From a candidate division TA06 bacterium SM23_40 (GTDB taxonomy: Bacteria; LJUI01; SM1-40), in assembly GCA_001303705.1 (NCBI GenBank), contig LJUI01000118.1, positions 1-8,051 of the forward strand: a stretch of 8,051 bases of DNA, written 5' to 3'. Numbering within the stretch: position 1 is the first letter of the stretch; every line of letters starts with the position of its first letter. A program made the position numbers and the translations under genes. Below are positions 2,444 to 6,441 of the stretch, in pieces. A model generated the notes under the pieces. The model was not told the DNA's origin and did not search any database. It worked only from the letters and a program-made list of their open reading frames with translations.

Positions 2444-3505
2444 ATGCGACTACTTGGCCTCGGTGTGGGAGCGATGATGCTCCTGGTTCTGGGCCTCGCT
2501 GTCATAGTCCCAGCCCAAGAGATATTTATCTGGGACCACGATAAGGGCGCAGACAACATGTTTTACGATCCAGAGGGCGCAGGCTACGTCGGGTGCGAGT
2601 TCGGGGTCCAGCGGGCCCTGACTCGGAACGGCTATACCCACGAGACGCTTCTCTATCTTCCTATGGATCTCAGCCAGTATGATGTGGTCTTCGTCATACT
2701 CGGCTGGTGGTGCTGAGCCGGTGCATCGACGATTGCTCCGGCGGAGCAATCTCGGTTGATGGAGTTCATGGATGCCGGCGGAAGTGTCTACGTGGAGGGG
2801 AACGATTTCGGTTACTCACACCGCTACGATCCGATCTACGAATACTTCGGCTGCACTTACACAGGGGACGGCAATTCCTCCTTCAATGTCGACCATCTCT
2901 ACGGAGAAGCGGGGACGATGCTGGATGGGAGGCATCTCCGGTATATGTACGGCCAGGGTCCCGATGTCTATGTTGACATGATAGAGAGCAATGGCGGCAC
3001 GATTCTGTTCCGCGACCAGATCAATGCCGGACGACTGATCAAGTGGGACGGTGAAGATCACGACTATCGCTCGATGCATTCCACATATGTGTTCGGCGCG
3101 ATGATCGATCAGACCCCCCCCGACACCAAGGATGATGTGATGGCCGCATACATGGGCTATCTCTTCCCGTCGGTCGTGGTGAATCTCGAGCCGGACGCGA
3201 CGACGATTCCCCAGGGTGGGACACTGGGCTACACGGCGACGCTCGTCAACAAGACCGACCAGCAGCAGACGATCTATGGACGGGCGAACGTGTACCTGCC
3301 CGGCGGTTCGCCGTTCCCGGGTAATCCCGTTGTGGCGCCGACTCAGGTTACTTTGAATGCCGGCGCGACGGTGACGGTGCACTACTCACATCCGGTGCCC
3401 GCGGGTGCTCCGCTGGGAGTGTACACGTATGAGGCGCAGGTGGGAGTGCCGCCGGCCAATCTGATCGATGACGATCTGTTTGAGTTCGAGATCGTGGCGC
3501 CGTAG
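2444..3505 (+). CDS. Putative secreted selenoprotein, copy 1 (in-frame TGA at codon 91)
   Basis: I do not recognise a named family. The start is ATG 2444, six bases after GGAGG (2433-2437). The frame runs 353 residues to TAG at 3503-3505 if TGA at 2714-2716 is read as selenocysteine (Sec). Layout: signal peptide (1-24, likely cut at VPA|Q); an alpha/beta domain (about 25-245) starting QEIFIWDHD, holding the strand YDVVFVILGWWC-U (80-91) and then LMEFMDAGGSVYVEGNDFGY, a pattern like amidotransferase/ThuA-type folds in secreted proteins; and a C-terminal Ig-like domain (about 246-353) with PQGGTLGYTA and VPAGAPLGVYTYE. C51, C90, U91 and C137 are conserved in copy 2. The product should act outside the cytoplasm; there is no membrane anchor after the signal peptide. 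Without recoding, the product would be a 90-residue fragment ending GWWC, and the downstream part would lack its own conserved start. A pseudogene is the alternative, but copy 2 argues against it. Confidence 0.8.
2714..2716 (+). other. In-frame TGA, candidate selenocysteine codon (copy 1, residue 91)
   Basis: The codons TGG TGG TGC TGA GCC GGT keep the same frame on both sides. The TGA sits after Cys90 and gives WWC-U-AGA. Copy 2 has TGA at the identical codon. Two other genes in the window (ending at 6441 and 7339) use TGA as a normal stop and the paralogs end in TAG, so the codon appears locally recoded. Confidence 0.75.
2724..2761 (+). promoter_or_regulatory. Candidate bacterial SECIS hairpin, copy 1
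   Basis: The upper stem GATTGCTCC (2731-2739) pairs perfectly with GGAGCAATC (2743-2751) around a GGC loop (2740-2742). The lower stem CATCGAC (2724-2730) pairs with GTTGATG (2755-2761), one G-T wobble, after a 3-nt bulge on the 3' side. The total is 16 bp. The loop begins 23 nt after the TGA and starts with GG. Bacterial SECIS models expect a loop about 16-37 nt after the UGA with a G in its first two positions. In such elements the stem-loop lies inside the coding region and binds SelB. It codes for TIAPAEQS. Confidence 0.72.
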
Positions 3506-3766: not shown

Positions 3767-3795
3767 TTGACAGATTGCCGATTTTGCGCTATGCT
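3767..3795 (+). promoter_or_regulatory. Sigma70-type promoter of the second paralog
   Basis: TTGACA (3767-3772), a 17-nt spacer and TATGCT (3790-3795) match the consensus closely. It shares TTCGTGCTTGACAG and TTTGCGCTA with the copy 1 promoter. Its presence means copy 2 is transcribed on its own and does not depend on read-through from copy 1. Confidence 0.82.
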
Positions 3796-3936: not shown

Positions 3937-4998
3937 ATGCGACGATACTACCTGCCAGTCGCAGCCATCGCCCTCATGACGATGGGCCTGGCTGCAATGG
4001 CGCAGACACAGGAGATACTCATCTGGGATCATGACACAGGTGCCGACAACATGTTCTACGACCCTGAGGGCGCGGGATATGTCGGCTGCGAGTTTGGCAT
4101 TGAGCGTGCGCTGGAGCAGAATGGCATTGAAGCTACGACCCTCCTCTATCTCCCGGCCGACCTCAGCCAGTACGATGCCATCTTCGTCGTCCAGGGATGG
4201 TACTGCTGAGGGGGCGGAAATCAGATTGGTCCGGTGGACCAAACACGATTGATGGAGTACATGGATAGCGGCGGAAGTGTCTACCTCGAGGGGAACGACT
4301 TCGGGTACCTCCACGCATACGATCCCCTCTATCCGTACTTCGGCTGCATCTATGTGGGAGATGGCAATTACTCTTTCAATGTCGACCACCTCTACGGCCA
4401 GCCGGAGACGATCCTGGATGGATTCCATCTCCGGTATATGTATGGTCTGGAACCCGACTACTATGTGGATGAGATAGCGGCTGATGAGGGCACGATCCTG
4501 TTCCTCTGCCAGCAGAACAAGGGCCGGGCGGTGAATTGGGATGGTGCCGGGCACGACTACCGCGCGATCCACTCGACGTTTGTCTTCGGTGCGATGATTG
4601 ATCAGATGCCGCCTGACACCAAGCAGGAAGTGATGGCAGTATATCTGGACTACCTCCTGCCTGAGGTCGTGATCGATCTGGCGCCGCAGGCGACGACGGT
4701 TCCCCAGGGAGGGACGTTGAGCTATGTGGCCGGGCTGACGAACAGGACGGATGAGGTTCAGATGGTCTGGGGACGCGCGAATGTGTACCTGCCCAATGGC
4801 AATCCGTTCCCTGGCAATCCGGTGGTACCGCCGACTCCGGTGACGTTGAATCCGGGTGCGACGGTGACGGTGAACTACTCACATCCGGTGCCTGCGGGTG
4901 CGCCGCTGGGAGTGTACACGTATGAGGTGCAGGTGGGAGTGCCGCCGGCGAACCTGATCGATGACGATCGGTTTGAGTTCGAGATCGTTGCGCCCTAG
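3937..4998 (+). CDS. Putative secreted selenoprotein, copy 2 (in-frame TGA at codon 91)
   Basis: This is a paralog of the gene at 2444-3505, aligned without gaps over all 353 residues at about 70 % identity by eye. The start is ATG 3937, six bases after AAGGAGG (3924-3930); the stop is TAG 4996-4998. TGA at 4207-4209 falls at codon 91, giving GWYC-U-GGG, which resembles the Gly-Cys-Sec-Gly redox tail of animal thioredoxin reductases; that is an analogy only. Layout: signal peptide (about 1-22, AMA|Q), alpha/beta domain starting QEILIWDHDTG, and Ig-like C-terminal domain. C51, C90, U91 and C137 are shared with copy 1; copy 2 has one extra Cys (FLCQQN). The most divergent parts are the signal peptide and residues 92-105, while EGNDFGY, SFNVDHLYG, VFGAMIDQ and the C-terminal 60 residues are nearly fixed. 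The part after the TGA could be read from GTG 4234, but no Shine-Dalgarno precedes it and copy 1 has GCG there. The function is unknown; an extracytoplasmic redox or metal-binding role is inferred. Confidence 0.8.
4207..4209 (+). other. In-frame TGA, candidate selenocysteine codon (copy 2, residue 91)
   Basis: TGG TAC TGC TGA GGG GGC stays in the frame of both halves of the protein. The position is codon 91, identical to copy 1, although about 30 % of residues differ between copies. Two independent nonsense mutations at the same codon with otherwise intact frames would be very unlikely; inheritance of one old nonsense mutation would not preserve the downstream protein. Confidence 0.76.
4220..4253 (+). 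promoter_or_regulatory. Candidate bacterial SECIS hairpin, copy 2
   Basis: TTGGTCC (4226-4232) pairs with GGACCAA (4236-4242) around a GGT loop (4233-4235), which begins 23 nt after the TGA as in copy 1. G4224-C4244 adds a pair past one A-A mismatch. A short lower stem ATCA (4220-4223) with TGAT (4250-4253) is possible but is shifted by two bases relative to copy 1. Compared with copy 1, C2736-G2746 is replaced by G4229-C4239, so pairing is kept while both codons change (Ala to Gly, Glu to Asp). The GGU loop resembles that of the E. coli fdhF SECIS (AGGUCU). Confidence 0.7.
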
Positions 4999-5061: not shown

Positions 5062-5104
5062 GAACGGGTTTCGGGGTGTTGGTCCCCGGGGCCCGTTCCG
5101 TCTT
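5062..5104 (+). terminator. Rho-independent terminator after copy 2
   Basis: GAACGGGTTTCGGGG (5062-5076) pairs with CCCCGGGGCCCGTTC (5084-5098) over 15 bp including three G-T wobbles, with a 7-nt loop, followed by CGTCTTT. It begins 63 nt after the TAG stop. It closes the second monocistronic unit. Confidence 0.7.
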
Positions 5105-5466: not shown

Positions 5467-6441
5467 ATGGATTCGATCAACCTCGACCCGGCCATGTATG
5501 AGTCTCTTCTCCCGTGGCTTCTCGAGGGGGAGCCATGGGTGCGGTATCGCACGTTGACCGACCTGCTCCGGCGGAAGCCAGACGACTCTGAGGTCGAGGC
5601 GGCGAGGAATGCCGTGCCCGACCACCAACTGATCCGTCCGATCCTGGCTCGTCAGAAAAGGAACGGCTGGTGGGGAAGGAAGAAGGACCTCCACACCTGG
5701 TGGCCCAAGAACAATACCACATTCTGGCTCGTGGGGACCCTGGCGGACTTTGGCCTGACGATCGAGGACGAACACGTATCTCGGGCATGTGCATGCATAT
5801 TCGACACCCAACTCGAGAGCGGCGGATTCCTCGGCTATAATCCGGATCAGGCCGCTGACTGTCACACCGGCATCCTGACAGAGTCGTTGGCCAAGGCCGG
5901 GAAGATCGGCGATGCGCGCCTGGAACGCGCATACCGCTGGCTGCGTTCACGTCAGCGACTCGATGGCGGATGGTGGTGTAAGGATACCGGACAACCCGGG
6001 CGGCCGAGGGAGGCGGAGCCGAGCTGCGCCCTCGCGACGATGTTTGTGCTCGGCGCTTTCGCGCACCATCCTCGGCTGCAGAAGAGCGATGTGGCCCGGC
6101 GGGGAGTGGAGTTTATGCTCGGTTGCTGGGAGAAGCGAGGTACGATCAAGTATGCGGGCCACGATTCGCAGATCGGAACAAACTGGGGAAAACTCAAGTA
6201 TCCATATACGGACTACCGGATACTCAAGTACCTCGATGTCGTCTCGAGGTTCCCCCACGTCCGCGGAGACCGGAGGGTCCGCGAGATGGCCGGGATCCTG
6301 GTATCGAAGCGAGGTCCGGTCGGTCGATACACTCCCGAGTCGATTCACAAAGTGTGGCACAAATTCGACTTCGGACAGAAGAAGAATCCGTCGAGATGGA
6401 TCACGGCGCTAGCACTTGGTGTAGTGCGCCGCATTCTGTGA
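5467..6441 (+). CDS. Alpha/alpha-toroid protein of the prenyltransferase/squalene-cyclase-like superfamily
   Basis: The product is 324 residues, without signal peptide or membrane segment, so it is probably cytoplasmic. ATG 5467 is preferred over the in-frame ATG 5449 because GGGAGGA (5453-5459) stands seven bases before it. The sequence has repeated helical units typical of this fold: WWPKNNTTFWLVGTLADFGL (79-98), ESGGFLGYNPDQAADCHTGI (117-136), RAYRWLRSRQRLDGGWW (154-170), ALATMFVLGAF (188-198) and a C-terminal PSRWITALALGVVRRIL (308-324). The 'SRQ.LDGGWW' phrase is like the QW-type motifs of terpene cyclases. The DxDD (squalene-hopene cyclase) and DDxxD catalytic motifs were not seen, so enzymatic cyclisation is not supported; it may bind a peptide or lipid, or be an orphan toroid. 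C110, C132, C171 and C187 with nearby His could bind metal. It is transcribed alone from 5231-5259 and ends in TGA. Confidence 0.75.
   Translation: MDSINLDPAMYESLLPWLLEGEPWVRYRTLTDLLRRKPDDSEVEAARNAVPDHQLIRPILARQKRNGWWGRKKDLHTWWPKNNTTFWLVGTLADFGLTIEDEHVSRACACIFDTQLESGGFLGYNPDQAADCHTGILTESLAKAGKIGDARLERAYRWLRSRQRLDGGWWCKDTGQPGRPREAEPSCALATMFVLGAFAHHPRLQKSDVARRGVEFMLGCWEKRGTIKYAGHDSQIGTNWGKLKYPYTDYRILKYLDVVSRFPHVRGDRRVREMAGILVSKRGPVGRYTPESIHKVWHKFDFGQKKNPSRWITALALGVVRRIL

Follow-up and report, generated by a model that had tools for sequence, protein, structure and literature searches.

Two paralogous genes in the window (the whole stretch of 8,051 nucleotides that was analysed) each carry at codon 91 an in-frame TGA which, judged from sequence, very probably encodes selenocysteine (Sec). 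Sec insertion is preferred to generic read-through because a covarying SECIS hairpin accompanies the codon, and because SelA, SelB, SelD and tRNA-Sec are encoded in the same draft assembly (G000: 2.88 Mb, ~90% complete, 189 contigs).

The two gene copies and selection on either side of the TGA

The relevant features of the window are as follows.

2270–2298, + strand: promoter-like site of copy 1, TTGACA-17-TAGACT (consensus match only)
2444–3505, + strand: predicted selenoprotein gene, copy 1; 353 residues counting Sec91
2714–2716, + strand: putative Sec-UGA, codon 91 of copy 1, after GWWC (GWWC-U)
2731–2751, + strand: candidate SECIS hairpin of copy 1, GATTGCTCC-GGC-GGAGCAATC; UGA-to-loop distance 23 nt; −12.3 kcal/mol
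3767–3795, + strand: promoter-like site of copy 2, TTGACA-17-TATGCT (consensus match only)
3937–4998, + strand: predicted selenoprotein gene, copy 2, reading ATG...TAG; 353 residues counting Sec91
4207–4209, + strand: putative Sec-UGA, codon 91 of copy 2, after GWYC (GWYC-U)
4226–4242, + strand: candidate SECIS hairpin of copy 2, TTGGTCC-GGT-GGACCAA; UGA-to-loop distance 23 nt; −8.3 kcal/mol
5062–5098, + strand: terminator-like hairpin 3' of copy 2

Each copy has its own purine-rich ribosome-binding site in addition to its promoter-like site, and the copy 1 protein consists of a signal-peptide-like start, a GATase1-like N-domain and a C-terminal Ig-like domain. This last domain, which both window proteins have (~110 residues; 4665–4995 in copy 2), recurs at ~95 further places in G000, lacks a Pfam model, and may serve as a surface-anchoring or sorting domain; at each of 14 loci inspected, 0–3 residues separated its end from the stop codon. 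Positions 5467–6441 encode a squalene-hopene-cyclase-like toroid protein of 324 residues whose stop codon is TGA. At the gathering threshold, Rfam gave no match in the window.

An earlier note on this DNA had described copy 2 as having TGA at codon 91 after GWYC, a frame open beyond it and a length of 353 residues, and had placed the same TGA codon in a paralogue differing at about 30% of residues without an indel. Each of these observations was confirmed at the positions listed above, the two products showing 70% identity over a codon alignment with 0 gaps. Its further claim that both halves had been kept under selection was borne out by a Nei-Gojobori comparison of copy 1 with copy 2, from which the first 25 codons of the pre-TGA part were omitted. 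Before the TGA, dS was saturated (pS = 0.78, pN = 0.16), and dN/dS is accordingly described as low and given no ratio; after the TGA, the values (dS = 0.66, dN = 0.20) corresponded to a dN/dS of 0.31, which is not near 1, with 0.34 for the first 120 post-TGA codons. Equivalent comparisons with a third copy, which bears the same TGA on another contig of the assembly (G000:C99), gave 0.22–0.64 before the TGA and 0.32–0.41 after it. Because dN/dS is low in both parts, purifying selection acts both before and after the TGA. In the last 53 codons (3344–3502 and 4837–4995), third positions differed between copies 1 and 2 at 9 of 48, versus 16 of 26 in codons 31–60, a lower synonymous divergence which perhaps reflects gene conversion between the copies.

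These data bear directly on the proposition that the pair are pseudogenes or contain a sequencing error, the TGA being a damaging mutation or a miscall. A single TGA per frame does have the look of a young pseudogene, and the assembly is a fragmented draft, but the same codon occurs in two copies, a third paralogue and 18 genes of nine other genomes, the downstream half is conserved with a dN/dS of ~0.3, and each copy retains its own promoter-like and ribosome sites. This proposition, which the earlier note had considered very unlikely, has a vanishingly small probability and is in practice refuted; a base-calling error is effectively excluded, since the TGA is retained by the third copy and by homologues from ten genomes. 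The selected read-through that had been proposed instead is upheld, and can be narrowed to probable Sec insertion.

The SECIS hairpin and the Sec machinery

Published limits for bacterial SECIS elements comprise a loop of 3–9 nt, a stem of 4–16 bp, a G in the first two loop positions, a spacing of 16–37 nt and an energy of −7.5 kcal/mol or lower (PMC13188914). The hairpins of all three G000 copies, that of the third paralogue being CGATTGCTCC-GGA-GGAGCAATTG at 26 nt from the TGA, lie inside every one of these limits, and 5, 36 and 15 per 1000 synonymous recodings equalled the native hairpin in the three copies. Over the family as a whole, most hairpins beat 95–99% of synonymous recodings and four Calditrichota hairpins do not; several Calditrichota hairpins miss the −7.5 kcal/mol rule, with values of −1.6 to −6.1 kcal/mol when the unbroken stem alone was counted.

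Covariation was assessed with 19 homologue hairpins aligned on the loop, using eight pairs and 500 shuffles. Standard pairs occupied 88.8% of cells versus 57.6% in the shuffles, and 52 cells had changed on both sides versus a shuffled mean of 15.9, a figure reached in 0 of 500 shuffles. The covariation score was 0.829 (0.217 when shuffled) and fell to 0.14 or less when the partners were slid by 1–3 columns; the inner six pairs were 96.9% paired in the first 16 hairpins. The UGA-to-loop distance is 23 nt in nearly all family hairpins, and G006:C190 keeps its hairpin even though the intervening coding part is six bases shorter. Between copies 1 and 2 of the window, one stem pair has changed from C-G to G-C with the replacement of Ala by Gly and Glu by Asp; since this compensatory swap changes two amino acids, pairing has been kept at the protein's cost. 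Within codons 91–120, third positions of identical-residue codons differed at 2 of 19 versus 88 of 229 elsewhere, as expected if the RNA itself were constrained there.

Assays of the G000 assembly against established models identified a tRNA-Sec with anticodon TCA (77.7 bits; gathering score 47), SelB (391.9 bits; cut-off 242), SelA (557.9 bits; cut-off 268) and SelD (380.7 bits; cut-off 125), the last with an in-frame TGA at the usual Sec site (GUASK). The selA gene adjoins selB on one contig, and the SelD gene lies ~150 bases behind the tRNA-Sec gene (L095:183-1470, G000:C58). SelB exceeded its cut-off in 10 of the 10 genomes with UGA family genes, and was also present in three genomes having TGA-free homologues; SelA exceeded its cut-off in 34 of 39 Calditrichota genomes. 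Co-occurrence alone proves little because SelA and SelB are also found in genomes without a family gene, and its use as a discriminating test was dropped.

Both machinery and element having been found by sequence, the following course of events is envisaged. The UGA at codon 91 would be met by the ribosome, SelB and Sec-tRNA(TCA) would bind the hairpin 23 nt downstream, and insertion of Sec would yield the full-length 353-residue protein.

An intact 353-residue frame would equally result were UGA reassigned to Trp or Gly (codes 4 or 25) as an ordinary sense codon. However, the two genes next after the selenoprotein copies both stop at TGA, so UGA is not reassigned and remains a stop in G000; furthermore, the TCA-anticodon tRNA is the tRNA-Sec, the tRNA-Trp seen has anticodon CCA, and each family gene has exactly one TGA, with a SECIS hairpin following it. 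Reassignment is therefore credited with almost no probability.

Alternatively, UGA might end translation to give a 90-residue exported peptide, the remainder being either a separate gene or the product of leaky near-cognate read-through. Leaky UGA is common, and candidate downstream starts were noted at GTG 4234 in copy 2 and TTG 2756 in copy 1. The three copies, however, have no ATG in common soon after the TGA (copy 3 reads RLTS, the others RLME), the predicted fold spans the TGA, and the covarying hairpin is present together with the full Sec machinery; termination is consequently regarded as very improbable, and Sec insertion as the preferred reading.

Homologues, distribution and gene order

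Genome contigs scanned with a single sequence gave no match, but a three-sequence profile did find relatives. The contig scan, whose patterns came from two conserved peptides that do not contain the TGA, returned five relatives with the TGA in 5 of 5, the labels being Calditrichaeota (3) and Candidatus Hatepunaea (1); the Hatepunaea-labelled genome falls in the same phylum as the Calditrichaeota-labelled ones. For the class and phylum around G000, the comparison set contained G000 alone. Profile searching of 39 Calditrichota genomes gave 15 strong matches (E < 1e-60) in 7 genomes, all 15 with exactly one TGA, separated by a clear gap from weaker matches that were TGA-free (E > 1e-25). A survey of 386 genomes sampled from bacteria at large brought in a single UGA gene from a third lineage; of the three genomes searched in that lineage, two have UGA genes, three in all, and the other has a remnant. 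The close homologues thus total 21 genes in ten genomes, each of the 21 having exactly one TGA, at a shared position, and the Sec codon is kept by relatives in at least three bacterial lineages. No relative was found in the viral contigs and plasmids searched. In the family tree the UGA members cluster, with 2 changes, and 0% of the bootstrap trees recover a single origin; the well-supported branches do not exclude a single UGA origin.

The remnant (L101:1459-1900, G187:C197) is 5'-truncated and has no TGA at the site, its hairpin is still visible, and it lies directly behind an FmdB-like gene; it represents the apparent decay of a selenoprotein gene.

In G001, G004 and G006 the gene order is selB, an FTR-SelD fusion and the selenoprotein gene; in G002 the selenoprotein gene is directly 3' of selA, and in G008 a SelD-like gene is located upstream with one gene between. 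In the fusion (L090:4765-6096 in G001:C288, L091 and L093), a ferredoxin-thioredoxin reductase beta chain is joined to SelD across an in-frame TGA (CPGUASK in G001); NCBIfam holds models for both parts, and none was seen there for the fusion. The selenoprotein gene of G000 is not adjacent to sel genes, and among its neighbours no gene for transport or metals was identified.

Predicted fold, likely chemistry and comparison with known systems

The N-domain was modelled with AlphaFold for a Calditrichota member (pLDDT 87.3, pTM 0.88), and the model matched the solved structures 2gk3 (Z = 17.7), 3soz (17.5), 3rht (16.9) and the ThuA-like 4jqs (15.8), with 188–195 residues aligned at an rmsd of 2.5–3.0 and 12–14% identity, which predicts a class I glutamine-amidotransferase (GATase)/ThuA-like fold. 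A sequence search of solved structures gave nothing convincing. The full-length protein model was poor (pLDDT 65), and its GH3 matches (rmsd 15–17) were discarded. The GxCxG nucleophile elbow is absent, EGNDF following strand 95–99, and no aligned member has GxCxG. The Sec is predicted to lie in an additional loop that follows the third strand and connects strand 57–62 with helix 80–91, a region modelled with the lowest certainty; the strand order suggests that this loop lies alongside the old active-site cleft.

The position of the partner Cys varies: C-U in G000, G004:C173 and G425:C220, C-x-U in G004:C38, C-x-x-U in most Calditrichota, and U-x-x-C (UGSC) in G326 and G425:C295. TGA-free relatives mostly lack the Sec loop. 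Only one TGA-free paralogue (G000:C19), in which the loop alignment is doubtful, shows a Cys close to the Sec column and is a possible Cys form of the loop; it forms part of a ~1000-residue protein (L038, G000:C19:25322-25840) with LGWRPESLSCGGTIES.

The window proteins have signal-peptide-like starts, as read from sequence. In Calditrichota members there is a type A sorting domain of the T9SS (Por_Secre_tail), whereas the window copies are without it and end in another domain. Because of these starts and the T9SS domains in relatives, the selenoprotein is most likely exported.

The Sec, adjacent to Cys in the extra loop of the G000 proteins, would then most likely perform redox or metal chemistry outside the cytoplasm, either as a reversible Sec-Cys pair (selenenylsulfide) that serves as a thiol/selenol oxidoreductase or as a soft-metal binding site. 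By motif analogy, redox chemistry as such is moderately favoured. A Sec-Cys site used for binding a metal or metalloid, or as a carrier of selenium or sulfur, with no redox turnover is considered rather unlikely: CU pairs do occur in the metal-linked selenoproteins SaoL, HgcA and MbdU (PMC13188914), and the Calditrichota operon with selB/FTR-SelD or selA would, on such a reading, point to selenium handling, but the G000 gene has neither sel genes adjoining it nor an identified transport or metal gene beside it. Returning to the Sec site in general, it may tentatively be proposed that it did not arise by a Cys-to-Sec swap, and that an exported domain instead acquired a site built specially for selenium, since the Sec loop and its mobile Cys occur almost only in UGA-bearing members.

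The usual sign of a selenoprotein is the existence of many Cys homologues. Their near absence here means that finders which depend upon them would miss the family, a dependence stated as a limit by the deep-Sep authors (PMC12013277), and if the purpose-built site is real, methods based on Cys homologues would be blind to such Sec sites. Annotation pipelines would split each gene into two fragments. The Calditrichota operon with selB, FTR-SelD or selA offers a testable link to selenium supply, and the analysis as a whole adds a well-supported selenoprotein family, of unusual predicted fold and probable extracytoplasmic location, from poorly studied phyla.

Searches of Pfam and NCBIfam gave no model for the domain, and literature searches on Calditrichota with selenocysteine or selenoprotein yielded nothing relevant. 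A 2026 review lists 119 selenoprotein families and subfamilies, none of which matches by description (PMC13188914). This is apparently a new exported selenoprotein family, set apart from the reviewed families by description and within searched libraries that are incomplete. Like known CU, CxU, CxxU and UxxC selenoproteins, its members combine a single Sec near a Cys with a downstream SECIS element inside the coding sequence and Sec machinery; unlike them, they are predicted not to have a thioredoxin fold, their Cys spacing varies within the family, and Cys homologues are nearly absent. The predicted fold is shared with the ThuA-like/GATase1-like proteins (2gk3, 3soz, 4jqs and 3rht), from which the family differs in lacking the GxCxG elbow, in its probable export and in the Sec loop. 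TGA-free YxEGGDxW surface domains, encoded in G000 (e.g. at G000:C24) and elsewhere, are homologous and are found in large multidomain proteins, but have GIYPSN or GTFPAS at the site in place of the Sec loop. Deep-Sep reported a CTP-synthase-C-terminal-related GATase selenoprotein with GxUxG (PMC12013277), which is likewise a glutamine-amidotransferase-type protein with Sec; its motif, present in no member of the family described here, resembles the GATase nucleophile elbow, whereas the Sec loop precedes the helix and strand that lead there. By comparison with these systems, the family is unusual in its predicted fold, its probable location and the scarcity of its Cys homologues.
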